Virus record (IMG/VR): IMGVR_UViG_3300042445_001158
Coordinates: 1 to 31,445 of that record
Strand: one strand, 5' to 3'
DNA: 31,445 nt
Source: a virus
The position numbers and the translations under genes were made by a program. Positions 1,419 to 31,445 of the stretch are shown here, in pieces. Within the stretch, counting starts at the first letter, position 1, and every line of letters begins with the position of its first letter. A model generated the notes under the pieces. The model worked only from the letters and a program-made list of their open reading frames with translations. It was not told where the DNA came from and searched no databases.

Positions 1419-2231
1419 TTAATCCTTATATCCCCAGATACCTCTAAATTCTCTATCTTCAGGACGAAATCCACCAGTAACAGCGTGGGCTAACTTAAAC
1501 AAATCTGGAATTACTAAGTCACCTTGTTGCCATCTATGAACTATTCTTATATCTTCATTGTTCCAAACTATATCTTCTATTTTTCTAATTAATGTTTGAA
1601 AATATCTTAACTCACTTTTCTTTGGGGATTCGCTTTTATATGATACTAAGTCTACTATCATAGGTGCTGGTAAGATTGTAAATCTAATTACTGGCTTACC
1701 CGTTAACCAGTGTTTAGCAATGATTGGGTAGTTGTCTGCTAGGCTAGTGTGTTCATTTATAAATCCCGCCCTTAATTGTGAATCTTTTACAATTTTTGGC
1801 TCAGTAATAATACTATTAGTTAAGAACTCTTGCTCTTCATTTGAAAGCATGTCAAATATAAGACTAGTGTCTACAAAATATGTCTTTCCATTTTCTGGAT
1901 TTGTCTTAAAGTTATACATGTTCCAAGTTGAAGCCACTATTGGGTTTGTGTAATATGTATGTTCAACATGCCATTCAACTATAACATCATCTGGTCCAGA
2001 AACAATATCAGATTTGCGGACATGATTTTCTATATATTTGTTAGTATTATCAAGCAATGACCAGCCTATATTTTTACCAAGTCTTTCAGCCAAATCAAAC
2101 TGTTCTTTTTCTGTCAAATTGGCATTTCTAAAACATATAACAGAGTCATAGATCAACTTGTCTTTGTAATATTCTGAGTTGTTTATTACGTTTTCAATAC
2201 CAGGAAATTCTATAGGACTTACATTTATCAT
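1419..2231 (-). CDS. TauD/clavaminate synthase-like Fe(II)/2-oxoglutarate dioxygenase
   Basis: The 270-residue protein has the layout of the TauD/TfdA/clavaminate synthase superfamily. An N-terminal VICFRNANLTEKEQF segment is typical of the family's first strand and helix. The metal-binding pair is WHVE (His88, Glu90), the HxE variant used by clavaminate-synthase-like enzymes. A WxxGDLVIPD strand leads to the distal His249 in AHAVTGG, and Arg260 or Arg263 could bind the 2-oxoglutarate carboxylate. The expected reaction is oxidative decarboxylation of 2-oxoglutarate coupled to hydroxylation of an unknown substrate in the cytoplasm. The start has GGAGG six bases upstream and a TGATATAAT promoter. 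It is divergent from a luciferase-like monooxygenase homologue. The fold is fairly sure; the substrate is unknown. Confidence 0.75.
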   Translation of the reverse strand: MINVSPIEFPGIENVINNSEYYKDKLIYDSVICFRNANLTEKEQFDLAERLGKNIGWSLLDNTNKYIENHVRKSDIVSGPDDVIVEWHVEHTYYTNPIVASTWNMYNFKTNPENGKTYFVDTSLIFDMLSNEEQEFLTNSIITEPKIVKDSQLRAGFINEHTSLADNYPIIAKHWLTGKPVIRFTILPAPMIVDLVSYKSESPKKSELRYFQTLIRKIEDIVWNNEDIRIVHRWQQGDLVIPDLFKLAHAVTGGFRPEDREFRGIWGYKD

Positions 2232-2317: not shown

Positions 2318-3034
2318 ATGAATATTTACTGGTTTGGTCGTCACGATAACAAAGACTTTGAATATGTTTCAGATTTATTAGAAGATTCTGGATTTTTTGG
2401 TTGGCTATTACCTTATGCAGCAGGAATGCGAGATCCTTTTATAAGAATAGCAAGGGGACTTAAAACAAATCAAAAGTTAAAATATTTAGTTGCTGTTCGA
2501 CCATACAATATTTCTCCTCAGTATTTATTGGCTATTTCTCATTCATTAGATTTAATTCAGGAAGACAGGGTTAGAATTAATTTTGTACCTGGACATATTT
2601 TTAATGATTTTGAAAAATTTTTTGGCGGTAGCGGAATATCAGAAATTAATGATAGCAGCAATTGGGAAGATAGAAAAAAATATTTTTGTTCTTATATTGA
2701 ACAATTTTATAATTTAGAAACTAAAAAACCATATAAAAAACCATATACTTACGTATCTGGATTTCCAGATGATTTGTGTCCACAAATGAGTAATTTTGGG
2801 GATTGTAACATAGTTTCATATGGAAGGTTGGTTGAGGGAAAACTTAATGACCTTGATAAAAATAAGGTAATATTTTTTCCTGTTTATAAAATTGAACAAT
2901 TTAAAGAAAGAATGGAGCATATAAAACAAAATGGATATAACAATATAATGATTCACACTGATGGCGAAAAAGATTTTGATCTTGCTTTAGAAGTGTTTAA
3001 TGAAGTTAAAAAATTAAAAAATCAAATTACTTGA
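2318..3034 (+). CDS. Luciferase-like (SsuD-type) flavin monooxygenase homologue, short
   Basis: Residues about 55 to 92 contain KYLVAVRPYNISPQYL, then a Ser at 76, an Arg at 84 and INFVPG. This matches the pattern LxAxRPGxxSPxxxA...R...N.VxG of alkanesulfonate monooxygenase SsuD and related bacterial-luciferase-family TIM barrels. At 238 residues it is well short of SsuD (about 380), so part of the barrel or the substrate cap is missing or strongly diverged. It is clearly paralogous to the 287-residue protein at 10529-11392. If functional it would use reduced FMN and oxygen; catalytic competence is not shown. The start follows a leaderless-type promoter. The stop TGA lies inside the TTGACA box of the next promoter. 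Confidence 0.6.
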   Translation: MNIYWFGRHDNKDFEYVSDLLEDSGFFGWLLPYAAGMRDPFIRIARGLKTNQKLKYLVAVRPYNISPQYLLAISHSLDLIQEDRVRINFVPGHIFNDFEKFFGGSGISEINDSSNWEDRKKYFCSYIEQFYNLETKKPYKKPYTYVSGFPDDLCPQMSNFGDCNIVSYGRLVEGKLNDLDKNKVIFFPVYKIEQFKERMEHIKQNGYNNIMIHTDGEKDFDLALEVFNEVKKLKNQIT

Positions 3035-4913: not shown

Positions 4914-5603
4914 TTAATTTTCATAGATAGTTTTATTTTGAAACATATTACTTAAAACTTTATCAAGTATACCTTTAAAGGCTTGATCTTCCGTTGATAG
5001 GTATATAGATTTTTCTGTGATTTCATTAGATCTAGCCAAATGTCTTCGATTTGTATAAACCTTTACGTCATTTGTTTTTGTACCACCAACACTATATATA
5101 TTTCCATAAATAGATCTCCATAAACAACTTGGATATTTTTTAAGTATTAAACGAAGTTTATCTTTTTCCATGGGCATTGGGGTATGCAACTCATAGTCAT
5201 ATGGTAGTTCTATTCCGTTTTGAATTAGTCTAGAGTTTGTTAATATTAATTTTTTAATGTATAGTGATGATCCAGTTATCTTAACATATCTATTTATCTT
5301 ATCTAACAATAAACCTCCATGAAAATGCTCAATCTTATCTATTTTTTTAATTATAAAAAAATCATCATTCATTAATATAAAGTCGTTTGGTATTTTGTCA
5401 GAGTTGCATAAAGCCTGTAAGTTATTTAAAGCATTAGTGTATTTATTATGATTTTGTTCTACTGGTATATGGTATCCAGAATACCATTTTGGCTTTCCAC
5501 CTACCAGCCAAACCTTTGCATCTGGAAAACTATTTATGACAGATCTAATAGAGTACCTTAACTCTTCATTATCTCCGTCACGACAAATGTAAACAAAATC
5601 CAC
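4914..5603 (-). CDS. Stealth-like sugar-phosphate transferase
   Basis: The N-terminus VYICRDGDNEELRYSIRSV matches the first conserved region of Stealth proteins (VYTWVDGxDxE...ELRYSLRS), followed by a W-V-GGKPKW segment and the second-region signature MNDDFF (Asp80, Asp81). Stealth proteins are hexose-1-phosphate transferases used in capsule and wall glycan synthesis. At 229 residues only the first two conserved regions can be recognised, so this is a compact version. The start is a GTG with GCGGGG upstream. It is divergent from the glycosyltransferase operon, and the two promoters face away from each other in a 62-base gap. A role in modifying surface glycan fits the neighbours. Confidence 0.65.
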   Translation of the reverse strand: MDFVYICRDGDNEELRYSIRSVINSFPDAKVWLVGGKPKWYSGYHIPVEQNHNKYTNALNNLQALCNSDKIPNDFILMNDDFFIIKKIDKIEHFHGGLLLDKINRYVKITGSSLYIKKLILTNSRLIQNGIELPYDYELHTPMPMEKDKLRLILKKYPSCLWRSIYGNIYSVGGTKTNDVKVYTNRRHLARSNEITEKSIYLSTEDQAFKGILDKVLSNMFQNKTIYEN

Positions 5604-5624
5604 TAAATACCCCGCTTTATTATA

Positions 5625-5647
5625 AGTATATCAGAATCTGGTATACT
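5625..5647. promoter_or_regulatory. Back-to-back divergent extended -10 promoters forming a 23-base palindrome
   Basis: On the minus strand TGATATACT (5625-5633) points to the Stealth-like gene. On the plus strand TGGTATACT (5639-5647) points to the glycosyltransferase operon. Only five bases separate them, and together they form an inverted repeat with 10 of 11 positions matching around one central base. Each polymerase footprint would cover the other promoter, so the two should compete; a repressor could also use the palindrome. Confidence 0.55.
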
Positions 5648-5665
5648 GATATAAAGACAGAATAG

Positions 5666-6631
5666 GTGGACTCCTTGGCTAATATAGTATTTCTTGGTAA
5701 CTTTGAAGTGCCTTATAGTAGTGAGAATCATCATGCTAATTCTTTAGAGTCTCTTGGACATACCGTGCAAAAATTGCAAGAAAAAAAAGCGGGTAGTTCT
5801 GAGATATTAAATGCAGCACTAAAATCTAATCTATTCATTTGGGTACACACACATAGATGGCAAACTCCAGGATCTAGATCTATGACAGATGTATTAAAAC
5901 AATTAAAGGCTGCTGGCATACCAACTATGACTTATCACTTGGATTTGTGGTTTGGCATTGAGCGTGAAAAAGATTTAAAGAATGATGATTTTTATACAAG
6001 CATAGGTCATTTTTTTGCTACAGATAAGTTAATGTGTGATTGGTTTAATGAAAACACACAGGTTAAAGGACATTTCTTGCCTGCTGGCGTATATGATAAA
6101 GAGTGTTATGTACATCAAGATTACGATCCACATAACTTTGAACATGACATAATTTTTGTTGGTAGCAGAGGATATCATCCTGAACATAAATATCGTCCAC
6201 AATTAATAGATTTTTTACGAAAAACATACGGTAAAAGATTTTTACATGTTGGTGGCGATGGAGACACTGGCACAGTTCGTGGAGATGCGCTTAATCGTAT
6301 TTATGCAAAAAGCAAGGTAGCAATAGGTGATAGTCTTAACATAAATTTTAACTATCCATACTACACAAGTGATAGATTGTTTGAAAGCACTGGTCGTGGT
6401 GGTTTTACTATTTATCCCCGCATTAAAGGTCTTGATAAATATTTTGAAGATGGTAAAGAAATTATATTTTATGAACATGGTAATCTTGAAGACCTTAAAC
6501 AAAAAATAGATTACTACATCTTAGATGGATTAACTAGAGAAGAGATAAGGTTTGCTGGTCATGAACGAACTAAAAAAGAACACACATATGTCCATCGTTG
6601 GGCAACTATCATAAAGGAGTTAGGTCTATGA
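5666..6631 (+). CDS. CgeB-like GT-B glycosyltransferase
   Basis: The protein begins with a Rossmann-like strand (NIVFLGNFEVPYSSE) and a SLESLGHTV segment typical of CgeB/GT4-type GT-B enzymes. A GSRGYHPEHKYR segment follows the domain boundary. The C-terminal donor site region reads SDRLFESTGRGGFTIYPRIKGLDKYF, corresponding to the family pattern RxFExxxxGG. The start is written as GTG at 5666; a TTG nine bases downstream, with GGTGGA before it, is an alternative. It is the first gene of a plus-strand unit of sugar-related genes and overlaps the FkbM gene by four bases. Donor and acceptor sugars cannot be read from sequence. Confidence 0.75.
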   Translation: MDSLANIVFLGNFEVPYSSENHHANSLESLGHTVQKLQEKKAGSSEILNAALKSNLFIWVHTHRWQTPGSRSMTDVLKQLKAAGIPTMTYHLDLWFGIEREKDLKNDDFYTSIGHFFATDKLMCDWFNENTQVKGHFLPAGVYDKECYVHQDYDPHNFEHDIIFVGSRGYHPEHKYRPQLIDFLRKTYGKRFLHVGGDGDTGTVRGDALNRIYAKSKVAIGDSLNINFNYPYYTSDRLFESTGRGGFTIYPRIKGLDKYFEDGKEIIFYEHGNLEDLKQKIDYYILDGLTREEIRFAGHERTKKEHTYVHRWATIIKELGL

Positions 6632-7380
6632 ATTTTATAGAAAGATCAGATATTAAATGGAAGACAGTACCATATTTGCGTCAAGGACAAACAAAAAACT
6701 ATGATTACAGACTAAAACTAAATGAGCCATTGGCTAATTGGGATGTTTGGGATTATTGGGAAAGTGAAAGAATTTATAGCATGCAGCAACACCTTAAAAA
6801 GGGTGATGTATTTTTTGATATTGGAACAGAGGCTGGATGGTGCAACTTAGTTTATGCTGACATTGTTGGACCAGAAAACATGGTACTAATTGAGCCAACT
6901 CCTGAGTTTTGGGCAAACATTCATGCCCTATGGTATAAAAATTATTCAGTAGATCCTTTAGGTTGTTATGCTGGACTAATGAGTGATGAAACAACAGACA
7001 CTCGCAAAGGTAGTAATTTAAATGCCTGGGGAGAAAAACATCTTGGACCGATTATTGATAGAAATAAATATGTATATATTCATGACAACACAGAAAGCAT
7101 ACCAATGATTAAAGTAGATGACTATGTTTCTGAAGTTGGCATTATTCCAAATGTCTTAAATATTGATGTAGAGGGTGCAGAACTTCTTGTATTTAAAGGT
7201 GCAGAAAAAACATTACGAGATAATAATTTAAAAATATTTGTATCAATTCATGATGATTTAGGTATTCGTGACTATGACACAACTCCAGAAGATACTATTT
7301 CATATTTACAATCTTTTGGTTATGTTGGAGAGTTTTTAGCAAAAAATCATGAAGCACATTGGTATTTTGAGAAAAAGTAA
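6628..7380 (+). CDS. FkbM-family methyltransferase
   Basis: Residues about 48-60 (KKGDVFFDIGTEAGW) form the S-adenosylmethionine-binding motif I, ENMVLIEPTPEFW is motif II, and NVLNIDVEGAELLVFKGAE (about 190-208) is the diagnostic FkbM segment, followed by a strand with a conserved His (FVSIHDD). FkbM enzymes O-methylate sugars or other hydroxyls. The ATG at 6628 has AGGAG ten bases upstream and overlaps the previous stop; an in-frame upstream codon exists but lies inside the previous gene without a start signal. The 250-residue length is usual. In this operon it likely methylates a product of the flanking glycosyltransferases. Confidence 0.85.
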   Translation: MNFIERSDIKWKTVPYLRQGQTKNYDYRLKLNEPLANWDVWDYWESERIYSMQQHLKKGDVFFDIGTEAGWCNLVYADIVGPENMVLIEPTPEFWANIHALWYKNYSVDPLGCYAGLMSDETTDTRKGSNLNAWGEKHLGPIIDRNKYVYIHDNTESIPMIKVDDYVSEVGIIPNVLNIDVEGAELLVFKGAEKTLRDNNLKIFVSIHDDLGIRDYDTTPEDTISYLQSFGYVGEFLAKNHEAHWYFEKK

Positions 7381-7383
7381 TAA

Positions 7384-8232
7384 ATGATAAAGGCATACCT
7401 GTATTCTTTTAATGAAGAAGATTGTGCTGCGGATAAATGGGACTACGGCTTATTAAAAGAAATATTTGATAAATACGAAATTGAACAAATAAAAGTAAAC
7501 TCATTACCTAATACTGATAGAGCATTTGTCGTAATTCCTGGACCTCAAAATCTTGGTTATGAAGAACACATTAATAAAGAATTACAAAAAATAAAAAGAG
7601 TAGTTTTATTTTTTACAGGGGATGAAGAAGTTAGATTTAAATTAGATAAAATTAATCATCCTAACATAGAGATATGGCTTCAGACTCCACACAAACAACA
7701 TCAAAATTATAACAAATTGCCACTTGGAGTTCCACAACATTTTAAAAAATTTTTACCAGAGTACGGACCTAAAAAATATAATGTATATTTTGGTGGACAA
7801 ATTACGCATTCAAGAAGAAAGGAATTGGCTAAGGCTATGCAAACAATACCCAATGCCCTGTTTAAGCCAACAGAAGGGTTTGCACAAGGTGATCATCCAA
7901 AAGACTACTATAGTAACCTAGCCAGTACAAAGATTGCTCCAGCACCATCTGGTGCGGTTGTAATAGATTCTTTTAGATTTTATGAAGCAATAGAAATGTT
8001 ATGCTTTCCAGTAGCGGATTCCCTTGATCCAAAGGGTAATCTTATAAAATACTATGATTTTATTTATGATGATATAACTCCAATAAAAACGGTAGACAAT
8101 TGGTTTTTATTAAAAAACTTAATCCCACAAATATTAGACAACTATCCTAATAATATGCATAAGGTTGTTTGTTGGTGGATTAAATATAAAAGAGATTTAG
8201 GAATTAAGATTATGAGGCAAGTCAATGCATAG
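7384..8232 (+). CDS. GT-B type glycosyltransferase-like protein
   Basis: A 282-residue protein whose middle (YNVYFGGQITHSRRKEL, about residues 131-147) resembles the linker region of exostosin or CgeB-like glycosyltransferases. Its C-terminal site reads IAPAPSGAVVIDSFRFYEAIE and then FPVADS, close to the family pattern CPRGxxxDSFRxxEAxxxGCIPV. The N-terminal domain is short and diverged. It lies four bases after the FkbM gene and overlaps the next glycosyltransferase gene by eight bases, so it is part of the same operon. Activity is likely by motif; specificity unknown. Confidence 0.6.
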   Translation: MIKAYLYSFNEEDCAADKWDYGLLKEIFDKYEIEQIKVNSLPNTDRAFVVIPGPQNLGYEEHINKELQKIKRVVLFFTGDEEVRFKLDKINHPNIEIWLQTPHKQHQNYNKLPLGVPQHFKKFLPEYGPKKYNVYFGGQITHSRRKELAKAMQTIPNALFKPTEGFAQGDHPKDYYSNLASTKIAPAPSGAVVIDSFRFYEAIEMLCFPVADSLDPKGNLIKYYDFIYDDITPIKTVDNWFLLKNLIPQILDNYPNNMHKVVCWWIKYKRDLGIKIMRQVNA

Positions 8233-8986
8233 TCGAGATGTAACAATTATAATTCCAACTTCGATTCTTCCAAGTCATCCAAGCACATCAATAATTGATG
8301 AAACAATCAAATCTATACGCTACCATTTTCCAAATAATGAAATTATTTTACAGATAGATGGCTTGCGTGAAGAAAGAATAAATCGTAAATCAGACTATGA
8401 TGAATATAAAAACAGAGTTTTGTGGAAGTCTATGCATAAATGGAAAAATGTTTTACCAATAATTTTTGATAAACATAGTCATCAAACTACAATGATGAAA
8501 GAAACAATTAACCTTATAGACACTTCTGTTTTACTTTATGTTGAAGGAGATGCACCATTAACTGTAGATTACGAGATTGATTGGCAAAAGTGTTTAGATA
8601 TGTTAGAATACAACAAGGCTAATACAATACGTTTTCATTTTGAAGCAGAGATTCCAGAGCCACACCAACATTTAATGTTTGGAATAGAAAATGGTTTTAT
8701 GAAAACTGCACAATGGAGTCAAAGACCACATTTGAGTACAGTTAAATATTATAGAGATATTGTTTTACCATTTTCTAATGAACAAACTTTTATTGAAGAT
8801 AGGTTTCATGGTAAAATTCAAGATGATGTTTTACCATATGATAGTTTTGATCAAGAAGGTTGGGACCAACACAAACTTTGGATTTATCATCCAGAAGGAA
8901 ACATTAAAAGATCTTATCATTTAGATGGTCGTGATGGTACTAAAAAATTTACAAAGGATGATGATGTTTGGGGATATAAAGAATGA
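8225..8986 (+). CDS. GT-A type glycosyltransferase-like protein
   Basis: The N-terminal strand VTIIIPTSILPSHPSTSIID and the turn YHFPNNEIILQIDG are typical of GT2-like GT-A folds that bind the nucleotide sugar. LLYVEGDAPL (about residues 103-112) sits where the DXD metal motif belongs, with Glu-Gly-Asp in place of Asp-x-Asp. A second acidic segment, FIEDRFHGKIQDDV, is in the acceptor half. GAGG eight bases upstream supports the ATG, which overlaps the previous gene. The stop overlaps the next ATG (ATGA). Length of 253 residues fits a minimal GT-A enzyme. Confidence 0.65.
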   Translation: MHSRDVTIIIPTSILPSHPSTSIIDETIKSIRYHFPNNEIILQIDGLREERINRKSDYDEYKNRVLWKSMHKWKNVLPIIFDKHSHQTTMMKETINLIDTSVLLYVEGDAPLTVDYEIDWQKCLDMLEYNKANTIRFHFEAEIPEPHQHLMFGIENGFMKTAQWSQRPHLSTVKYYRDIVLPFSNEQTFIEDRFHGKIQDDVLPYDSFDQEGWDQHKLWIYHPEGNIKRSYHLDGRDGTKKFTKDDDVWGYKE

Positions 8987-10020
8987 GATTAGGAGTTATT
9001 GCAAGATCTGATAATACTGGACTTGGTAATCAAACCAAGGAACTTGTAAAAATGTTAAATCCAGACAAGATTCTTTTAGTTGACTCTACATCTTTTAATA
9101 ATAACAGGCAACATCCAGACTGGTATAAACAATATGATGTAATAAAAACAATTAAGGGTATGCCTAGGACAAAAGAAATTTTAGCATTTTTAGAAAATAT
9201 AGATGTTGTTATAAGTTGTGAAACATTTTACCATTTAGACTTTGTGGATATAGCAAGAAAAAGAAATATAAAAACAATATTGCAATATAACTATGAACTA
9301 TTTGGAAATTTAGTTCATCCAGAGTGGCCGTTACCAGATGTATTATTATCACCAAGCAGTTGGAATATAGATGTTGTTAAAGAAAAGTTTGGATCAAAAT
9401 GCAAGGTATATCATATACCACCACCAACAGATACATCATTGTTTAATGCTGCAAGAGAAAATAACCTATCAAAAACCCATAAACGAATACTTCATGTTGC
9501 TGGTAAAAAAGCAGCCAAAGATAGAAATGGAACTAACACCGTAGTAGAAATGCTTAAACATTCTAGTGCAGATTATGAACTTGTAATAGCAACACAAACC
9601 CCTCTAGACTTTATAACTAAAGATAGCCGTTTAAAAATAAACAAAGATAATATTAGAAATAGAGAAGATCTGTATAATGACTATGATGCTATGGTTCTTC
9701 CTAGACGTTATGCTGGTCTTTGTTTGCCTATGAATGAGGCTCTTTTAAGTGCCCTGCCAGTTTTTATGACTGACATATCTCCCAATAATATTATACTTCC
9801 TAAAGAGTGGTTAGTAAAATCAGATAAAATTGGAGAGTTTAAGACTAAGTCAATGGTAGATATTTATGAGGCTAACCACGAAGAATTAGGAAAATCTATT
9901 GACAACTATTTTAATAATATAAACATCTATGATAGCAAACAAAAGGCTATAGAAATTGGATTTAATAATTTTTCAGTTGAAGTATTAAAAGATAAATATT
10001 TAAAAATTATTAATCAATAA
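8983..10020 (+). CDS. GT4-like GT-B glycosyltransferase
   Basis: The protein starts MRLGVIARSDNTGLGNQTKE, a glycine loop like that of GT4 enzymes. The inter-domain region KRILHVAGKKAAKDRNGTN is followed by VIATQTPL. The donor-site motif is YDAMVLPRRYAGLCLPMNEAL, matching the family pattern in which a Glu (ExxxCG...PxxEAL) contacts the ribose and diphosphate. Length of 345 residues is normal for the family. It is the last gene of the plus-strand sugar operon, coupled to the previous gene by ATGA, and is followed by a hairpin shared with the convergent unit. Confidence 0.75.
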   Translation: MRLGVIARSDNTGLGNQTKELVKMLNPDKILLVDSTSFNNNRQHPDWYKQYDVIKTIKGMPRTKEILAFLENIDVVISCETFYHLDFVDIARKRNIKTILQYNYELFGNLVHPEWPLPDVLLSPSSWNIDVVKEKFGSKCKVYHIPPPTDTSLFNAARENNLSKTHKRILHVAGKKAAKDRNGTNTVVEMLKHSSADYELVIATQTPLDFITKDSRLKINKDNIRNREDLYNDYDAMVLPRRYAGLCLPMNEALLSALPVFMTDISPNNIILPKEWLVKSDKIGEFKTKSMVDIYEANHEELGKSIDNYFNNINIYDSKQKAIEIGFNNFSVEVLKDKYLKIINQ

Positions 10021-10068: not shown

Positions 10069-10365
10069 CTACTTTACAGCGAAACGGCCTCCGCCACCTG
10101 CGCTTTTTTTGGTAGTTTTCTTTGCTGGTGCCTTTGCAGACTTAAGAGCCTTTGCTACTTCAGCAGCATCAGGTAAAATACCAAATGCTTTGTCATTTGG
10201 ATTAATTGCTCTCAATGCGACGGGCGCAATAGCAGCAACGAGTGCTGTCCATAGATCTTTTGGATCTGTTACGCCAGCCATGTAAAGCGCAATTCCTGCA
10301 CCAAGAACAGATCGTCCATATGATGCTAGCATTGCTTTAGTCTTATCATTGATTAGGTTATTCAT
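10069..10365 (-). CDS. Small membrane protein with basic tail, holin candidate
   Basis: The ATG at 10365 is chosen because a perfect AGGAGG precedes it; longer upstream frames only overlap the XapX gene. The 98-residue protein has two hydrophobic stretches (GAGIALYMAGV, about 23-33, and LWTALVAAIAPVALRAI, about 38-54), a conserved-looking NPNDKAFGI turn, and a Lys/Ala/Gly-rich tail. Proteins with the pattern SYGRS...LAGVTDP...NPNDKAFG recur in environmental phages and are often called holin-like or hypothetical. Here it is far from the endolysin, so a lysis role is only a possibility. Confidence 0.65.
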   Translation of the reverse strand: MNNLINDKTKAMLASYGRSVLGAGIALYMAGVTDPKDLWTALVAAIAPVALRAINPNDKAFGILPDAAEVAKALKSAKAPAKKTTKKSAGGGGRFAVK

Positions 10366-10373
10366 TATTCCTC

Positions 10374-10532
10374 CTAGGATATAATTTGTGTTAGTATTGT
10401 AAAGCCAATCCATAAACCAATAATTCCTGCGACTCCCGCAAAAACTGGTGGTGCTGGTACTGGCAATTTGAATGCAGCAAACACGACACCGCATCCAAAA
10501 CCTGTTATTGTTGATAAAATTATTTCTTTCAT
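10374..10532 (-). CDS. XapX-like small membrane protein (52 aa)
   Basis: The sequence contains GFGCGVVFAAFKLPVPAPPV and then AGVAGIIGLWIGF, which matches the XapX pattern of two hydrophobic helices joined by a LxxPxPAPP turn. XapX proteins are small inner-membrane proteins of unknown biochemical function. The ATG overlaps the TGA of the monooxygenase homologue (ATGA), and the last codons carry the Shine-Dalgarno of the next gene. This gene lies in a different frame from the longer ORF that can be drawn through the region, and the family match makes it the better reading. Confidence 0.7.
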   Translation of the reverse strand: MKEIILSTITGFGCGVVFAAFKLPVPAPPVFAGVAGIIGLWIGFTILTQIIS

Positions 10533-11392
10533 GTGACTTTTTCTGATTTGCAATATTCATTTACATAATGCTTAATTACTTGAAACTCTCTATTAGGATA
10601 AGAATTTAATAATAATTGAGTTATACCTCTTTTTTCAGCATCTTTTATAAAAGAAACAAATTGATCATAAGTAAAAAATTCAACATCTGACACTTTATTT
10701 AATGTTTCTCCTTTACGCCAAACTGGACGATATGCATAATCTTCTGGTAATTTTTCTAATGAAGAAATATTTTTTCTAATAACAGGAGTTATTGCTAACA
10801 TAACTTTATTATAGTTTAAATTTAATGGGTTTTGTAAAATGGTTTTTCCACTCCATTTATCAATTTCTTCCCAGTGCTGAGCCTTGTAAACTTTATAAGG
10901 TAAAATTATTTTACTATTATATTTATTTGCTGCTTTTTCTACAGTAGGATTAGTTGTTGATATATAAAAGTCTAATGGATTATTCTTATTTCCTCTCATT
11001 TTATTTAAAATATCTACATATTTAATAAGATAATTAGATCTATCAATGTTGCTTGGTGGAGCCGTAGACTCAGCAGATTCTTCAAAAAGTCCTCCAAAAC
11101 CTTCTTCATGATTTTTTAAATATCCAGAAATAAAATTTATTTGCAATCTATTACCATTTAATATTTGAGTCATACTATTATTAATCATACAAAGATATTG
11201 TGGAGAAATTGCATACGGTCTTATTGCAATTAAATATTTTGTTTTTTGATCTGGATTTGCTAATTTTGCTAATTTTGTAAATATATCCCCTTGAGTTACA
11301 TCATATGTAAACATAAGACCTGTAAATTCAGATTCATCTATTTCGTCTAAAAATCCTGGTGCAAAATTTCCACCAAAATAATAAAATTCCAT
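10529..11392 (-). CDS. Luciferase-like (SsuD-type) flavin monooxygenase homologue
   Basis: Residues 52-90 read KYLIAIRPYAISPQYL, then a Ser at 73, an Arg at 82 and INFISG, the same signature as the 238-residue protein at 2318 and as SsuD-type luciferase-family monooxygenases. The 287-residue length is nearer to a full TIM barrel but still short of SsuD. The C-terminal part (FFTYDQFVSFIKDAEKRGIT) looks like the last barrel helix and strand. If active it would oxidise a substrate with reduced FMN and oxygen; no flavin reductase is visible nearby. It overlaps its upstream neighbour by one base and XapX by four, so it is embedded in the small-gene operon. Confidence 0.6.
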   Translation of the reverse strand: MEFYYFGGNFAPGFLDEIDESEFTGLMFTYDVTQGDIFTKLAKLANPDQKTKYLIAIRPYAISPQYLCMINNSMTQILNGNRLQINFISGYLKNHEEGFGGLFEESAESTAPPSNIDRSNYLIKYVDILNKMRGNKNNPLDFYISTTNPTVEKAANKYNSKIILPYKVYKAQHWEEIDKWSGKTILQNPLNLNYNKVMLAITPVIRKNISSLEKLPEDYAYRPVWRKGETLNKVSDVEFFTYDQFVSFIKDAEKRGITQLLLNSYPNREFQVIKHYVNEYCKSEKVT

Positions 11393-11820
11393 TATGTGTT
11401 ATTTATTTCTGATTCATTTGGTAAAAACTTTTTTAAATCTTGATATGCAATAGATATTTTTTTCATACTATCATGTAGTGGATGACCTTCAGATAAAGTG
11501 CTAAATTCTGAAAAATAGTTAATACTTGGATCAACTTCTTCAACAAACTTGGTTAAACCGTTTTGAACATCTTCAATGTATGTAAAAGCCCAGTCACGAG
11601 AATCTGATAAAAATTTTATAAAATTTTCTCTATGTATGTCGTTGTTAGTTAATTCTTGGTTTGCTTTAATAGATTCAACATGTTGATTAAGTTTAAAATT
11701 TTCTAAAAATAATTGAGCAGAAGTTAAACTAAGTTTGTTTAATTTGGATAACATTGTTAAATACGATATGGCAAAAGAAACAGACAAAACTATAAAAAAT
11801 ATTAAAATAACATCTTTCAT
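11392..11820 (-). CDS. Membrane-anchored coiled-coil-like protein (142 aa)
   Basis: An N-terminal hydrophobic helix (VILIFFIVLSVSFAISYL, residues 4-21) is followed by a Leu/Lys/Glu-rich, probably helical region up to residue 140. No cysteine or catalytic motif is visible. The start overlaps the preceding stop by one base (TAATG). I do not recognise the family. The layout, one anchor and a cytoplasmic or external helical domain, is the only structural statement the sequence supports. Confidence 0.6.
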   Translation of the reverse strand: MKDVILIFFIVLSVSFAISYLTMLSKLNKLSLTSAQLFLENFKLNQHVESIKANQELTNNDIHRENFIKFLSDSRDWAFTYIEDVQNGLTKFVEEVDPSINYFSEFSTLSEGHPLHDSMKKISIAYQDLKKFLPNESEINNT

Positions 11821-12050
11821 TATTTAATAGCCTCCCTAGTAATCATTACGATTGCTCCATTGCTTTCTAAAGCCTTTTTTACTCTTACCATATATTCTAC
11901 AGCATGTCGCTTCTCTGTGTCAAATAAACGCATAAACATAGCCTCATTAGCCTTAATGGTTATAAAATGATCGTTGTCAATAATGTCTACCTTAAAATTT
12001 TTAGGTGCTGGAATAGAATGAAATGCCATTTTCATTTTATCTGTATACAT
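11820..12050 (-). CDS. Hypothetical protein (76 aa)
   Basis: The ATG at 12050 is chosen over an upstream TTG because it forms the TAATG overlap with the WhiB-like gene, the coupling used throughout this operon. The product is a small alpha/beta protein with a central VDIIDNDHFITIKANEAM segment and no metal or membrane motif. Family not recognised. Confidence 0.6.
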   Translation of the reverse strand: MYTDKMKMAFHSIPAPKNFKVDIIDNDHFITIKANEAMFMRLFDTEKRHAVEYMVRVKKALESNGAIVMITREAIK

Positions 12051-12334
12051 TATTTTTCCATTGTTAAAGATTGCCAGGTATTGGACCAATCTTCTTTACT
12101 CTTGTGTTTGTTAAACTCTCTAGATACTTCTCCGCCTTCTAAATATACTCCGCCCCAAACACCCCATTCTTTACCTGAAATGCCTACTGCAAAACACGTC
12201 TTTGCTACTGGACATTGTTGACACATTGAATCAACAATTGCCCTGCCAGATTCATTATCTTCATATTTATCAAAGTAAATATTTGTATCAAGACCTAAAC
12301 AAATTGCGTTATCTTTCCATAAATGCTGTTTCAT
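12050..12334 (-). CDS. WhiB-family Fe-S transcription regulator
   Basis: Four cysteines are spaced as in Wbl proteins: Cys12, then Cys38, Cys41 and Cys47 in MCQQCPVAKTC, followed by the GVWGG turn (residues 58-62) and a basic C-terminal end. Wbl proteins carry a [4Fe-4S] cluster, bind the primary sigma factor and change promoter choice; they occur in Actinobacteria and their phages. The ATG at 12334 is favoured over an upstream GTG that lies in the neighbouring gene. The predicted protein is 94 residues, a normal Wbl length. It could redirect host transcription during infection, and it strongly supports an actinobacterial host. Confidence 0.9.
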   Translation of the reverse strand: MKQHLWKDNAICLGLDTNIYFDKYEDNESGRAIVDSMCQQCPVAKTCFAVGISGKEWGVWGGVYLEGGEVSREFNKHKSKEDWSNTWQSLTMEK

Positions 12335-12336
12335 AA

Positions 12337-12546
12337 TTATTCTCGATACTTGTTTGGTATATCCCACCCATTACGACCAGGAGAATAAACTTTATGAATG
12401 TACCATTTATCTTTAACTCTAATACCTTTTGGAGATGTTTTGGCAATGTCAGATTCTTTTAAATCAATAACATCCCAACCATTCCAAAGTAAATTACTAT
12501 TTTTAGAAACAATTTTTTCCATAGTGTTTAAACTTCTAATAAACAT
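12337..12546 (-). CDS. Hypothetical protein (69 aa)
   Basis: The start has GGGGG five bases upstream. The protein is small and basic, with three Trp in WNGWDVIDL and KWYIHKVY segments, suggesting a compact beta fold. It sits two bases before the WhiB-like start. No family is recognised. The spacing and start signal support it as a real gene. Confidence 0.65.
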   Translation of the reverse strand: MFIRSLNTMEKIVSKNSNLLWNGWDVIDLKESDIAKTSPKGIRVKDKWYIHKVYSPGRNGWDIPNKYRE

Positions 12547-12555
12547 AAATACCCC

Positions 12556-12906
12556 CTAGTATTTAAATATACCAACTTCTACATTTTTTAATTGTGCTTC
12601 TGAAACTAACCTTGAAGTTTTTTCATTAGGCTTACTCAAAAAAGCAAAATAGTTAAGTTGATCTAAATTTTCTTGCATCCAAACTGGAGCAACTTTATAA
12701 AATTTAATTTTTTTACCTCTTGCTTTCATTCCTCTTTCAGATAAATTAGAAAACTCGGAAACAAAAGAATTTATTTTAGCAGGACCAGCAGAGTAAATTA
12801 TAAACTCTTTGTCATCCTTGTGCATATTTGACATGGCAACGCCCATAGAGCGAATAAACACATTATAGTCGTTAAACTCATTTGTGCCCTGAACCGCCAC
12901 GATCAT
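12556..12906 (-). CDS. Conserved actinophage-type alpha/beta protein (116 aa)
   Basis: The protein starts MIVAVQGTNEFNDYNVFIRS, a strand, a GTNxF loop and a helix, like a Rossmann or SLOG-type nucleotide-binding fold. IIYSAGPAKINSFVSEFSNL and SERGMKARG follow and the end is VEVGIFKY. I recognise this as a recurrent hypothetical family in phages of Actinobacteria. No function is established to my knowledge. The inner ATG at 12906 has GGATGG eight bases upstream; an ATG at 12918 in frame lacks a spaced Shine-Dalgarno. It overlaps the previous gene by 29 bases in another frame. Confidence 0.65.
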   Translation of the reverse strand: MIVAVQGTNEFNDYNVFIRSMGVAMSNMHKDDKEFIIYSAGPAKINSFVSEFSNLSERGMKARGKKIKFYKVAPVWMQENLDQLNYFAFLSKPNEKTSRLVSEAQLKNVEVGIFKY

Positions 12907-13297
12907 CTCTTTTACCATCCTTTAAACTGTCTAATATAAAAAGCATTTTATCTAGGTCACCCTTTGATAAAGTACTAGTATCAATTGGTTTAGCGGTGTG
13001 GCGTTGTACCTCACCATCTATAGCCTCTGCAACATAAAAAATATTATTAGATATCCAGTATGCCTCGTTGCCTAAAACAATAACCTTAATTGTACCCTTT
13101 TCTTTATGTTTTGTCAATTGAGAAAAGTTTTGTTGGTTATTTGATAAAGGCATAGAAAAAAATAATTTTAACAACCTGTGCGTGTCGCTTTGTTTATGCA
13201 AGGTTCTTGAAAAAAGTTTTTTCTTATTACTTTTACCTACTTTAAGTATAAACCAAGCAAGAGACAATGTCAAGCCTAAAACTATTAACTCTTGCAT
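12878..13297 (-). CDS. Membrane-anchored hypothetical protein (139 aa)
   Basis: An N-terminal hydrophobic helix (LIVLGLTLSLAWFILKV, residues 4-20) is followed by a basic segment, a Ser/Gln/Asn-rich linker, a beta-rich domain (TIKVIVLGNEAYWISNNIFY, about 69-88) and a final helix containing LDKMLFILDSLKDG. The C-terminus is charged and Gly-rich. The start has AGG upstream and lies 13 bases after the stop of a 52-residue gene. Family not recognised. Confidence 0.6.
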   Translation of the reverse strand: MQELIVLGLTLSLAWFILKVGKSNKKKLFSRTLHKQSDTHRLLKLFFSMPLSNNQQNFSQLTKHKEKGTIKVIVLGNEAYWISNNIFYVAEAIDGEVQRHTAKPIDTSTLSKGDLDKMLFILDSLKDGKRDDRGGSGHK

Positions 13298-16507: not shown

Positions 16508-17932
16508 TTAGGACAATATAGGAAAATTATATTGTTTTTGCCATTTTTCTATATCTAATCTATCATTTAATAGTGGTTGCCCTTTAATATTTAAACTAGT
16601 ATTAAGTAGTATTGGGATTCCAGTAATTTTATACCAATTAGATAAGACATCGTAAAGTCCAGAATGTTGGTCTTTATTTACAGTTTGAACTCTTGATGTG
16701 CCATCAATATGTACTACAGAAGGGATCTTTTCTGGCTGTAAGCACTTGACTGTATACTGCATATAAGGGCTTGTAAAGTCCATATCAAACCATCTGGAAG
16801 CATATTCTTCCATAACTACTGGAGCAAATGGTCTAAACAATTCTCTTTGTTTAATTAGATTAACCTTGTTTTTAATTAATGGATCTCTTGGGTCTGCAAG
16901 AATACTTCTATTTCCTAATGCTCTTGGACCAAATTCTGCACGTCCTGTTGCCACTGCTACTATTCCATCTTTTAATATACCGTCCACAATTTTCTGAATA
17001 GGATACTTTCCACCAAGGTCATAGCCAAGGTACGGATCCTTCCATTCAAGATGTTTCCCATAAAGTGCTGCTGCTGCACCAAGAGAAGACCCTGCGTCTC
17101 CTGGATTTGGCATAATCCAAATTGTATCAAAGATATTCCATAGCAACGTATTAGCAGAAGAGTTTAGAGCGCATCCACCCATAAACACTAAATTGTTTTT
17201 GCCCGTAACTGACTTTGCCATACGCATAAAGTCGTTTAGTCTTTGTTCGTATACAACTTGAACGGCTGCTGCTATATCAAATTTATCCTGTTCTGATATT
17301 TCTATACCCCAATCATAAATTCCTTTATGAAAGTTATATTTTTGTTTTGAGTAAGATGGAAAATACTTGTCTACTTTTTTATAGTATTTTTTCCAATCTC
17401 CATAGGCAGCCATACCCATCATAATGTATTCTTCTTGGTTTGGCATTAGGCCAATGAGTTGTGTAAATGCTGAATAAAATAATCCAAAACTAACTGGATA
17501 ATTTTGCTTATATTTTAATTTTATTTTTTTGCCTTTACCAACCCATATTGTTGATGTGTTATATTCTCCTATTGCATCAATAACAACAATACAGGCACTA
17601 TCAAGGTCGCTTGTGTAGTATCCCGCTGCTGCGTGAGAATAGTGGTGGCTAAAAGATTTTCTTGGGATGCCATCAATATTGAACCTTGGTTTCCAATCCC
17701 CAGACCCACCCCTTAGAGCCAGTCTAGAGGCTTTTAAAAGAGGCTTCTCGTAATAGGCAATATAGTTTGGTGTGCCATACTGCAAAACATCTTTTATTAA
17801 ACTATCATTAATGTACCAGTCATTTTTTTGTTTGCTATATCTTTCTGCATGCCCTGCAAATAATATTTTCCCGTTTTTAATCAGAGAGACAGAAGCATCA
17901 TGCGATGTTTCATTAATTCCAAGAATTATCAT
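16508..17932 (-). CDS. NodU/CmcH-type carbamoyltransferase
   Basis: The N-terminal domain is Kae1-like: ILGINETSHDASVSLI, the metal and substrate site SHHYSHAAAGYY (His96, His100) and VVIDAIGEYNTSTIW. FMGGCALNSSAN lies near the domain end. The C-terminal domain has RAEFGPRALGNRSILADPR and RELFRPFAPVVMEE, the family hallmarks, and ends with ILLNTSLNIKGQPL. Such enzymes transfer carbamoyl from carbamoyl phosphate via carbamoyl-AMP to a hydroxyl on a sugar or natural product. The 474 residues are somewhat fewer than TobZ or NodU (about 570). The next gene upstream is SGNH-like, so glycan decoration is plausible; a DNA base target is an alternative. The start region is very A-rich with no strong Shine-Dalgarno. 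Confidence 0.92.
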   Translation of the reverse strand: MIILGINETSHDASVSLIKNGKILFAGHAERYSKQKNDWYINDSLIKDVLQYGTPNYIAYYEKPLLKASRLALRGGSGDWKPRFNIDGIPRKSFSHHYSHAAAGYYTSDLDSACIVVIDAIGEYNTSTIWVGKGKKIKLKYKQNYPVSFGLFYSAFTQLIGLMPNQEEYIMMGMAAYGDWKKYYKKVDKYFPSYSKQKYNFHKGIYDWGIEISEQDKFDIAAAVQVVYEQRLNDFMRMAKSVTGKNNLVFMGGCALNSSANTLLWNIFDTIWIMPNPGDAGSSLGAAAALYGKHLEWKDPYLGYDLGGKYPIQKIVDGILKDGIVAVATGRAEFGPRALGNRSILADPRDPLIKNKVNLIKQRELFRPFAPVVMEEYASRWFDMDFTSPYMQYTVKCLQPEKIPSVVHIDGTSRVQTVNKDQHSGLYDVLSNWYKITGIPILLNTSLNIKGQPLLNDRLDIEKWQKQYNFPILS

Positions 17933-18991: not shown

Positions 18992-19429
18992 TTACAAAAA
19001 TATAATATTTGAAACTTGATAGGATGATGGGTAATGCTTAATAGATCCATCAGTAGATATTAAAAATTTTTCAAAGTTCCAGGCTATATCTTTACCCCCA
19101 GTAGCCTTTTCCTTGCAATATTTGTAAATTGGGTGAGCATCTGGACCATTAACATAAATTTTTTCAGCAATAGGAAATGTTATACTAAAATTACTTGTAC
19201 AAAATTCTTTTATTTCTTCGTTTGTTCCTGGTTCTTGATTTCCAAATTGATTGCATGGAAAACCAATAACCACTAAAGAATCATTTTGTATTTTTTGTAA
19301 GTCAGCATATTGAGATGTATATCCACAATGGCTTGCGGTATTAACAATAAGTATGTTTTTATTTTTAAATTGTTTTAATTCTATAACATTTTTATTATTA
19401 TCTATAAATGATAAATCATATATGCTCAT
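18992..19429 (-). CDS. Glutathione peroxidase-family protein (cysteine type)
   Basis: All parts of the family active site are visible: NTASHCGYTSQY with peroxidatic Cys35, FPCNQFGNQEPG with Gln65, and WNFEKFLI with Trp117 and Asn118. Two more cysteines (Cys59 in FPCN and Cys77 in EFC) match positions in thioredoxin-dependent plant and bacterial members, where the latter is the resolving Cys. It would reduce hydrogen peroxide or lipid peroxides in the cytoplasm, likely with thioredoxin. Length (145) is slightly short and the C-terminal helix is truncated. AGGGG is upstream of the ATG. It follows a larger paralogue by 23 bases. Confidence 0.9.
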   Translation of the reverse strand: MSIYDLSFIDNNKNVIELKQFKNKNILIVNTASHCGYTSQYADLQKIQNDSLVVIGFPCNQFGNQEPGTNEEIKEFCTSNFSITFPIAEKIYVNGPDAHPIYKYCKEKATGGKDIAWNFEKFLISTDGSIKHYPSSYQVSNIIFL

Positions 19430-19452
19430 AAAAATTCCCCTATATTTTAAAT

Positions 19453-20256
19453 TTAAACAGCAATTAATTCATGTGCATGATCATACGCTGGATTAATAAT
19501 TGATTTTTCTCCAGCCATAAGTTTTTCAATATGATCACGAATAACAGCATTTTCTTCATTAAAAATGTACTCAGATCTATCTGGACCCATTTTTGCTGGG
19601 ATTCCTTGTGCCGCAAGGTCTTCTTTTAGAGTACGCTCTACATCCCAGTTTAGTGTTGTAGCAGGATAATGCTTAACTACATAACCATCTTTGTCAATTA
19701 AATACTTTTCAAAGTTAGCGTTCATCATAAATCCACCGTCATGCTGGTTTAAATAACGTGACTCGTAATCTGTTTTTTCAACAATTCCAAGTTTATTTTT
19801 TTTATCTTGTATTGCTTTAATTTGTTTTGAAACCTCTAAATAAAGTTCATGTCTTTCTCCAAAGGGTTGGCCATTACCGTTAAGTCCTGGACCTTTACCA
19901 AGCCATGGTGCCTCTAATGGGATTTCTGCGGGATTAGAAACAATCATTTCTGAGAATGGGAATGTAACACCATAAACATCTTCTCCGTACAACTTAGAAT
20001 CCATACCGCAAGTAATACCTTGTGACCATTTACCTTTTGTGATGCTTGGACCACAAAAATCGTTAGTAGGAATTGCTACAACAGTAAAATTTTCTCCTGC
20101 CATATCTTCTTGAATCCATTCAATAGACTCCATTTGACCAGCGTTTCCACAACCAACGGTTGTGTTAATTAACATAATTGTTTTGCCTTTAAATTGTTGC
20201 AAAAAATTTGGAGTACCTTCGGCAGAATCTAACTCAATATCATATATAGATTTCAT
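19453..20256 (-). CDS. Divergent glutathione-peroxidase-like protein (267 aa)
   Basis: The protein aligns by eye with glutathione peroxidases: INTTVGCGNAGQM keeps Cys36, AIPTNDFCG occupies the FPCNQF place, VTFPFSEM matches the later strand, and MNANFEKYLIDKDG matches WNFEKFL. The catalytic Gln segment (QEPG) is absent and Trp is replaced by Ala180, so peroxidase activity in the classical sense is doubtful. There is an insertion of about 60 residues before the NFEKYL part and a 60-residue C-terminal extension. The ATG lies six bases after an extended -10 element. It may be a redox chaperone or a peroxidase with changed chemistry. Confidence 0.7.
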   Translation of the reverse strand: MKSIYDIELDSAEGTPNFLQQFKGKTIMLINTTVGCGNAGQMESIEWIQEDMAGENFTVVAIPTNDFCGPSITKGKWSQGITCGMDSKLYGEDVYGVTFPFSEMIVSNPAEIPLEAPWLGKGPGLNGNGQPFGERHELYLEVSKQIKAIQDKKNKLGIVEKTDYESRYLNQHDGGFMMNANFEKYLIDKDGYVVKHYPATTLNWDVERTLKEDLAAQGIPAKMGPDRSEYIFNEENAVIRDHIEKLMAGEKSIINPAYDHAHELIAV

Positions 20257-22217: not shown

Positions 22218-22843
22218 CTTTTATTTTTGTCTTCTGAGTATAATAAAACTCCAGCCCTTGGACCTTCTCCCCAAACTTCGTGAGTTAGTTCGTGTGGCAA
22301 TAAAAGCATATCTCCTGAATTTAATACACATATATCGTCGTGTTTTTCAATTTTCCAAAAAGATTTTCCTACTAATTGAATATATCCAGCATCAAAAACA
22401 TCTCTGTGCTCATTAATCAAACGACTTGCCAAAGAAACTATCAAACCTTCTGAGTGCCATACGCAACCACAGTTGCAATCTCTGTAGGATGTTTCACTAT
22501 AGTACTGACAGTTTTCAAATGCCGTTGCACTACCAAAATCACTGTTTAGTTTAATTAAAAAATCTTTTAATTCTGGAAGGTCTTTCCAAACTTTTCCACT
22601 TAAAGTTTTAATCCATAGTGGATGGTGTACTGATAACTCACCCTTTACTGTTATAAAAAGATTTCCTTCTGGAACTACTTTAGAAAAATTTTTCTTATTT
22701 TTTTCTCCTATGTCTTCAATAGAAGATGCTTTATATATAAAGTTTAATATGTCTTCCCAAGTAATATTATTTGGAAAATAGGATCTTTCTACTATAAATG
22801 TATTATTTTCTTTTGCTTTTTTAAATTTATTTTTAAGATTCAT
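22214..22843 (-). CDS. Cupin/JmjC-like oxygenase-type protein
   Basis: The C-terminal half has the cupin signature EHRDVFDAGYIQLVG with the metal pair His146 and Asp148, the strands SFWKI and LNSGDMLLLP, and a distal His (His184 or His188 in HELTHEVW), as in JmjC/cupin_8 2-oxoglutarate oxygenases. Such enzymes hydroxylate ribosomal proteins or other targets. An unusual cluster CNCGCVWH (residues 123-130) just before the cupin could bind a second metal. The N-terminal 70 residues are basic and helical. It overlaps the Ntn hydrolase gene by one base and shares its promoter. Substrate unknown. Confidence 0.6.
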   Translation of the reverse strand: MNLKNKFKKAKENNTFIVERSYFPNNITWEDILNFIYKASSIEDIGEKNKKNFSKVVPEGNLFITVKGELSVHHPLWIKTLSGKVWKDLPELKDFLIKLNSDFGSATAFENCQYYSETSYRDCNCGCVWHSEGLIVSLASRLINEHRDVFDAGYIQLVGKSFWKIEKHDDICVLNSGDMLLLPHELTHEVWGEGPRAGVLLYSEDKNKS

Positions 22844-23367
22844 TAAATACTAACTACATCAATAGGTCCCATACACGATGGGCTAAACTTAATAGCAGAA
22901 GAAACTGCACCTACAACTCTTTTGCGGGGATCTTTAGATTTTTCGGTAGCATTTAAATACCCATAAGCATATTCAGCGCCAGAACCCATTGCTAAATAAT
23001 CTAAATTATACTTAGATAAAGACATATCAATAGCATTATGCTCATATATTTGACCTTTAACACAAATAATAAGACCTAAATCACCTTCTTTGGTAGTATC
23101 TACCCACCAGTTATTATAAAAATCTCTAAGTTGTTTAATAAATTTAGTTTGCATAAACTTATCTAAATCTTTTATATCTGGAATATATGGATTAAAATTA
23201 TAACGAATACGTTCACCGTCTAGCGCTCCAGCATACCCAATTAAATATGGACCAAGTTTCCAAACCTTTGGAGAAGTTAATGGAAGAATGGTATTATCGT
23301 CTGAGGCACCACGATCACCAGCCATATAGATTTTATTTTCATGACGGACTACAGCAAGAACAGTCAT
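22843..23367 (-). CDS. Proteasome/HslV-like Ntn hydrolase
   Basis: The N-terminus MTVLAVVRHENKIYMAGDRG places Thr2 as the nucleophile after removal of Met. In mature numbering Thr1, Asp17 and Lys33 (SPKVWKLG) fall exactly on the catalytic positions of proteasome beta and HslV subunits. KLGPYLIGYAG and a late MGSGAEYAYGYL loop are also like HslV. At 174 residues it is close to HslV length. It could form a protease ring or a self-compartmentalised hydrolase that uses host ATPases; partner and substrates are unknown. It has GAGGGG upstream and is the first gene of a two-gene unit. Confidence 0.8.
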   Translation of the reverse strand: MTVLAVVRHENKIYMAGDRGASDDNTILPLTSPKVWKLGPYLIGYAGALDGERIRYNFNPYIPDIKDLDKFMQTKFIKQLRDFYNNWWVDTTKEGDLGLIICVKGQIYEHNAIDMSLSKYNLDYLAMGSGAEYAYGYLNATEKSKDPRKRVVGAVSSAIKFSPSCMGPIDVVSI

Positions 23368-31232: not shown

Positions 31233-31445
31233 CTTGGACAATGGTAATTACCTCTCCCTCTTTAGCAATTTGAGAAAGACGCTTCATAATTAAATCACGA
31301 ACCTCTGGGTGAGTTGAAGCAATATCTCTTAAGATTTCAACAAGAACCTCTTGTCGCCTTTCAATTTCAACCATTTCTTCTGCAAGTTCTTTGTTTTCTA
31401 AAAGCCCTGCTTTTTGTAACATTTCAATTCTAGATTTTTCAATAT
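31225..31445 (-). CDS. Small helical protein upstream of terL, 5' end beyond the window
   Basis: The frame is open to the right edge, with at least 72 residues, so an internal ATG at 31422 need not be the true start. The visible part is helical and Glu/Leu/Ile-rich (EMVEIERRQEVLVEILRDI), ending in EGEVITIVQDV. Its position directly before terL with an overlap suggests a terminase small subunit or other DNA-packaging partner, but no DNA-binding motif is visible in the part at hand. Confidence 0.5.
   Translation of the reverse strand, partial: IEKSRIEMLQKAGLLENKELAEEMVEIERRQEVLVEILRDIASTHPEVRDLIMKRLSQIAKEGEVITIVQDV

Follow-up and report, generated by a model that had tools for sequence, protein, structure and literature searches.

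Pared-down luciferase-like proteins carried as accessory cargo by probable viruses of actinobacteria

The window analysed here, the whole stretch of 31,445 nucleotides that makes up IMG/VR record IMGVR_UViG_3300042445_001158, encodes two short proteins bearing a signature of the luciferase-like monooxygenases (LLMs), a family of enzymes that oxidise small molecules by means of O2 and a reduced flavin. The locus raises two questions: whether such proteins truly belong to the bacterial luciferase superfamily and, if so, what they might do for a virus. The first protein, P0001 (238 amino acids, predicted to form a minimal TIM barrel), is encoded at 2318–3034 on the plus strand and has relatives at 61–71% identity in IMG/VR. 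Its signature, KYLVAVRPYNISPQYL (2480–2527, plus strand), lies on strand beta3 and contains A59 and R61, equivalent to A75 and R77 of MsuD, and RVRINFVPG (2567–2593, plus strand), on strand beta4, supplies N88 and G92, equivalent to MsuD N104 and G108. The second, P0002 (287 amino acids, predicted to form a complete TIM barrel in which a short segment joins beta7 to alpha7), is encoded at 10529–11392 on the minus strand and carries KYLIAIRPYAISPQYL (11192–11239, minus strand; A56 and R58) and RLQINFISG (11123–11149, minus strand; N86 and G90); its IMG/VR relatives share 34–84% identity with it, and one identical copy is found on IMGVR_UViG_3300044678_001534. A preliminary description of this DNA placed both open reading frames and gave both motifs exactly as we find them, leaving unmentioned only that the second gene is on the minus strand.

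Family membership and distribution

That a single phage carries two paralogues, as the preliminary description had it, is borne out by BLASTP, in which P0001 and P0002 match each other with an E-value of 2e-19 and 34% identity over 131 amino acids. Some 7.5 kb of the window separates the two genes, which are not adjacent and are read from opposite strands, a layout common to contigs G001 and G002 (71%/59% identity). Calling the pair duplicated is correct insofar as they are paralogues, but a duplication within this phage in the recent past was rejected, since the two proteins fall in different deep clades of a family that has one to three copies per contig, often in tandem.

As single sequences, both proteins are divergent. 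Searched against the PDB with phmmer, P0001 matched MsuD with an E-value of 4.5e-5, and P0002 matched MsuD/SsuD only marginally (0.057); against Pfam Bac_luciferase (PF00296) the E-values were 6.8e-4 and 0.31, respectively, and both proteins missed the family cut-off of 27.9 bits (19.5 and 10.8 bits), which is an annotation threshold and not a structural feature. We also used a profile of 56 viral relatives, drawn from 82 distinct proteins of 224–298 residues. PF00296 was matched at E ≤ 0.01 by 39 of these 56 sequences, and the NCBIfam model alk_sulf_monoox (TIGR03565) by every one of them at the same threshold (best E-value 2.2e-15), with weaker matches to SfnG (52/56, E ≤ 0.01) and RutA (23/56). 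The equivalog cut-off of TIGR03565, 518.2 bits, is not reached, P0002 scoring 22.4 bits. Compared with the PDB, the profile found MsuD (7e-12) and SsuD (2e-8), followed by RutA and sulfoquinovose monooxygenase. The likeness to the SsuD/luciferase-family signature that had been noticed by eye is thus above chance. A profile-profile comparison, proposed in the preliminary description as a check, was made with hhalign against 11 cellular LLMs spread from SsuD to RutA-like distance; it aligned the viral profile with them at a probability of 98.6% and an E-value of 5.1e-16 over 220 columns, which is approximately the whole barrel and extends beyond the N-terminal motif. By fold and profile, then, these proteins are members of the PF00296 superfamily, but they fall outside SsuD/MsuD.

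Relatives are numerous in viral metagenomes. Scans of IMG/VR with the two single proteins gave 9 and 51 loci, an alignment scan gave the best 80 of 317 stretches, and the pattern A-[IMV]-R-P-Y-x-[IMV]-S-P-Q-Y-L, written as degenerate DNA, occurs in at least 119 stretches. The same pattern had no exact match in cellular genome contigs (84,980 species), and a separate alignment scan of genomes was likewise empty. Since no cellular motif carrier was found by two different patterns, both of which more diverged cellular homologues would escape, no donor can be named, and an origin from an identifiable cellular donor was dropped. Among cultured phages, INPHARED holds no full-length relative: P0002 had no match there, and P0001 had only local matches of 27–30%, in records that bear the name Acinetobacter or Pseudomonas phage; those with an annotation are called SsuD. 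The two top BFVD matches, A0A6J7WQ01 and A0A6J7WN64 (251 and 249 residues; uncultured Caudovirales), resemble P0002 in being viral, of similar size and of the same fold, but share only 16–26% identity with it and bear the automatic name 'Luciferase-like domain containing protein', so the domain has already been noticed by automatic annotation. Further, one paper (PMC11849493) counts F420-dependent LLMs among the putative auxiliary genes that archaeal viruses carry. The earlier remark that such phage proteins are not described thus holds for this viral LLM family, of which we found no description in the literature, but not for the domain or for LLMs of viruses in general. The family is large and has so far been seen only in probable viruses of actinobacteria, and its diagnostic motif, A-[IV]-R-P-Y-x-[IVM]-S-P-Q-Y-L, lets it be counted in any metagenome.

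A predicted bare barrel and its putative active site

AlphaFold2 models built with the viral alignment (pLDDT 88.4 and pTM 0.87 for P0001; 92.5 and 0.90 for P0002) have eight strands alternating with helices in barrel order, so that the complete TIM barrel sought by the preliminary description is predicted for both proteins. The top Foldseek match in the PDB was MsuD in each case (3.9e-10 for P0001 and 2.8e-10 for P0002, probability 1.00), followed by SsuD, SfnG, the F420-dependent KvPepI, RutA and bacterial luciferase; for KvPepI, a compact F420 enzyme, the TM-score by target was up to 0.65. Large rmsd values in these comparisons are probably due to insertions found in the targets only. Several parts of SsuD are missing from the viral proteins or strongly shortened in them: the extension that follows beta1, the hairpin that precedes beta5, a segment of about 100 residues between beta7 and alpha7, which provides the lid and the sulfonate loop in MsuD (insertion segments as defined in PMC8234197), and the C-terminal extension. 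The suggestion of a reduced substrate cap is supported by these models, and the viral proteins are about 90–140 residues shorter than MsuD and SsuD, the group C, FMNH2-dependent alkanesulfonate monooxygenases with which they share the fold and the beta1–beta4 signature. The lowest-confidence stretch in both models is the loop after beta4 (residues 104–107 of P0001; block 101–110 of P0002), which carries a conserved GG..G.VND.S, with G101, D108 and S110 of P0002 nearly invariant, and which is probably a lid.

To compare active sites, residue roles were taken from MsuD structures (PMC8234197) and transferred by a joint alignment that is less secure in the C-terminal half than in beta1–beta4. The positions around the flavin ring and dioxygen are kept in the viral set: A75, N104 and G108 in 56/56 sequences and R77 in 55/56. 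D55 is kept as well (56/56), as is R126 in the form of Arg or Lys (56/56), and V106 and L46 are represented by similar residues, whereas the position of T49 in the dioxygen motif is mostly Tyr. The viral proteins thereby share the NxV-A elements of the dioxygen motif with the RutA/SfnG branch, from which they differ in length, in having mostly Tyr at the motif's T/S position and in substrate residues, which are not conserved. The FMN phosphate site, which the preliminary description had also sought, is not preserved in its MsuD form: H123, Y127, S177 and S178 are not kept among the 56 viral sequences, being replaced by N/S, S, T and N in most members and by F/W/L, K and variable residues in the P0001 clade. 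The sulfonate-binding R225 and R296 and the RGGA loop of MsuD are absent from the viral members in the joint alignment, and W195 is not conserved, although the alignment is uncertain there by about one column and an adjoining Tyr (Y166 of P0002) is near-invariant.

Flavin and dioxygen contacts are modestly enriched among the columns identical to SsuD (p 0.013) but not significantly so among all conserved columns (p 0.18), and this enrichment is therefore supportive, short of decisive. With changed phosphate-site side chains and mostly Tyr at the T49 position, the viral proteins could bind FMN differently or not at all, P0001 above all. Pairwise dN/dS ranges from 0.07 to 0.33 in the P0001 clade and from 0.33 to 0.67 in the P0002 clade, with several dS values approaching saturation. 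These ratios suggest that purifying selection acts on both genes, less strongly on that of P0002.

Host, neighbourhood and cargo slot

The large terminase subunit of the window (29457–31241, minus strand) is 53–54% identical over its full length to those of Streptomyces phages such as Yaboi and Genie2 (about 131 kb). A WhiB-like regulator, an actinobacterial host marker, is encoded at 12050–12367 on the minus strand (Pfam Whib, 3e-11); WhiB is a known marker of actinophages (PMC6802176, PMC10202952), and its presence in 32/32 LLM contigs, as against 1/14 control genomes (Corynebacterium), makes Actinobacteria the likely hosts. The habitat is probably freshwater, as suggested by what has been published on such phages and by the window's low G+C.

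P0002 sits in a block comprising SNase, thioredoxin, WhiB, a TM protein, the LLM, XapX/DUF1427 and a small Lys-rich protein. A 142-amino-acid protein with an N-terminal hydrophobic stretch (11395–11820, minus strand), whose family recurs in 100 fetched loci and lies directly upstream of the paralogue-2-block LLM gene or genes in the loci listed, forms the upstream border of a cargo slot. Downstream of P0002, a small hydrophobic XapX/DUF1427-like protein of 52 amino acids (10374–10532, minus strand; Pfam DUF1427 E-value 6.9e-5, below cut-off) has an ATG that overlaps the P0002 stop codon (ATGA). The slot is bordered downstream by a small hydrophobic protein with a lysine-rich tail (10069–10365, minus strand), conserved in 83 loci, without a match in Pfam or PHROG and holin-like by appearance only. 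A longer open reading frame, 10069–10560, spans the DUF1427-like one in a different frame; the part of it that lies upstream of its ATG at 10365 is probably an artefact.

The constancy of this block came from a survey selected for LLMs. When loci were instead fetched by a neighbouring gene (12556–12918), an LLM lay downstream in 5 of the 56 with enough sequence, and a role as core gene of these phages was therefore rejected. In 63 loci, the slot, bounded by the TM protein and the Lys-rich protein, was empty 49 times, held one or two LLMs 5 times and other genes 9 times. The LLM gene is accessory cargo. Other occupants include a tryptophan-halogenase-type flavoprotein (L295) and an IMPDH/GMP-reductase (L324). 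Halogenase-type genes were found in actinophage contigs at L295:6578–8125, L282:1108–2673 and in L332–L337, several of them within a few kb of an LLM, with Pfam E-values down to 6.5e-97 in the two scanned; the idea that halogenase and LLM are mutually exclusive occupants was abandoned, because they occur together in 8 of the 32 LLM contigs. The same slot also holds a family of proteins of about 240 amino acids that begin with an IPDWFKKLP-like stretch and match nothing in Pfam (L314:7930–9385, L327:8966–9682, L282:3035–3742).

Further genes of the window may be recorded here. Between the LLM copies (4917–10017) there are glycosyltransferase-like (Glyco_trans_1_2, GT1), FkbM methyltransferase and Stealth-CR2-like genes. 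The minus strand encodes a 474-amino-acid carbamoyltransferase of NodU/TobZ type that is conserved in relatives (16508–17932), an adjoining pair of glutathione-peroxidase-family genes (18992–20256; 145 and 267 amino acids) and a 174-amino-acid protein starting MTVLAVVRHENKIYMAGDRGAS (22843–23367), possibly an HslV/proteasome-like Ntn hydrolase (Pfam Proteasome E-value 0.0013, below cut-off). Tandem repeats of 15/30 bp at 25791–26082 encode (D/N/E)TEPV-type repeats in a 906-amino-acid protein, beside a 532-amino-acid surface-like protein; the tandem-repeat scan returned nothing bearing on the LLM genes.

Possible function and assembly

Given that the sulfonate arginines are missing and the phosphate site is changed while the flavin-ring and dioxygen residues are kept, these proteins are probably flavin-dependent oxygenases and not alkanesulfonate monooxygenases. 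With some reservation, we therefore favour the reading that P0001 and P0002 act on a non-sulfonate substrate and represent a virus-restricted, pared-down branch of group C (SsuD/MsuD/RutA type) that actinophages, probably of fresh water, carry as accessory cargo. The bare beta/alpha barrel would bind reduced flavin, in all likelihood FMNH2, at its top and react it with O2 to give a peroxyflavin in the conserved A75/N104/V106-type pocket, from which oxygen would be passed to a small substrate other than an alkanesulfonate; the flexible, conserved loop after beta4 would probably stand in, as a lid, for MsuD insertion IS-4, which is lost. The purifying selection on both genes and the flavin-dependent halogenases found in or near the slot also speak for this reading. 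MsuD and SsuD differ again in that no reductase was detected with the viral LLMs, a point against this reading: PF03358 (FMN_red) and PF01613 (Flavin_Reduct) are absent from 27 LLM contigs and both are found in 13/14 control genomes, so the reduced flavin would have to be supplied by host reductases. The purpose of such a reaction would presumably be metabolic, as for an auxiliary gene.

How the proteins assemble is a separate matter, on which copy number and pairing bear. The ten LLM contigs of at least 80 kb, which are linear and possibly incomplete, carry 2, 1, 3, 2, 2, 2, 1, 2, 2 and 1 copies. In the first survey, 44/128 loci have a tandem LLM pair, spaced by −4 to +7 nt with one exception; this count includes several contigs that overlap or are near-identical. 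Most of the pairs combine members of different clades. These tandem pairs speak for a luxAB-like heterodimer. Such an assembly, whose partner genes would lie apart in the window, is possible, is compatible with the oxygenase reading and is not required by it; that it is obligate seems rather unlikely. Three of the ten long contigs have a single copy, and both partners keep the active-site residues, so that there is no inactive beta-like partner. Moreover, the pairs run short to long (252+283/293), long to short (285+254, 283+254) or long to long (284+292), and this variation in order and clade composition, with members in different clades, implies that pairing arose more than once.

The preliminary description also considered a binding protein evolved from the fold. 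A non-catalytic counterpart would be LuxF (non-fluorescent flavoprotein), a luciferase-family paralogue shortened to about 230 residues, whose barrel is without one strand and several helices and which is thought to sequester myristylated FMN (PMC4432964). P0001 is similarly short, and the substrate-binding arginines and the cap are gone, as they might be in a protein that binds up a by-product of flavin chemistry or adjusts the level of free reduced flavin in the course of infection. However, LuxF is without core barrel elements, whereas all eight strands are predicted in both models here, and a LuxF-like truncated barrel was accordingly rejected; in addition, A75 and N104 of the dioxygen pocket are invariant, as mere binding would not need. 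Because the flavin-ring and dioxygen residues are invariant, we consider a binding role unlikely.

It is quite unlikely that the cofactor is F420 and the proteins are oxidoreductases dependent on it. WhiB points to actinobacterial hosts, which may supply F420, so that a flavin reductase would be unneeded, in line with the absence of FMN_red and Flavin_Reduct from the phage contigs, and the compact KvPepI is a good fold match. Against this, the nearest sequences are the FMNH2 enzymes MsuD, SsuD, RutA and SfnG, and the O2 pocket is conserved, while hydride-transfer F420 enzymes need no such pocket.

Sulfur chemistry would be suggested by the closest solved relatives, which act on organosulfur compounds, and by the TauD-type 2-oxoglutarate dioxygenase gene (1419–2231, minus strand; Pfam TauD, 2.6e-17) that is the divergent neighbour of P0001. 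Sulfur scavenging is the presumed role of cysC/cysH genes in freshwater phages, and APS-kinase-like genes lie nearby in relatives. In many of these phages the same block holds a CysC-like gene (L285:6812–7570 and its family, a cluster of 253 amino acids usually accompanied by a 67-amino-acid gene). True alkanesulfonate or organosulfur monooxygenases scavenging sulfur for the phage are nevertheless very improbable, as R225, R296 and the sulfonate loop are missing, for which reason alkanesulfonate monooxygenase function was rejected, as P0002 falls far short of the TIGR03565 cut-off (22 against 518 bits), and as TauD adjoins the LLM only in the nearest relatives (L003/L004 type), for which reason a TauD–LLM sulfur pathway was rejected too.

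Returning to the flavin-dependent oxygenase, a bolder extension, which we offer tentatively and with low confidence, is that the luciferase barrel was stripped to its core in a virus-only family and re-expanded to one to three co-resident paralogues, some of them tandem-encoded partners, which would modify a molecule of the phage or the host by means of flavin and O2, without any known cellular counterpart enzyme. If true, freshwater actinophages would possess a flavin-chemistry cargo set to which both the LLMs and the flavin-dependent halogenases of the same slot belong. If active, these bare barrels would be, in our judgement and not by survey, among the smallest complete luciferase-type oxygenases and would help to show how much of the fold flavin-peroxide chemistry requires, and they would add a recurrent redox function to the viruses of abundant freshwater actinobacteria.
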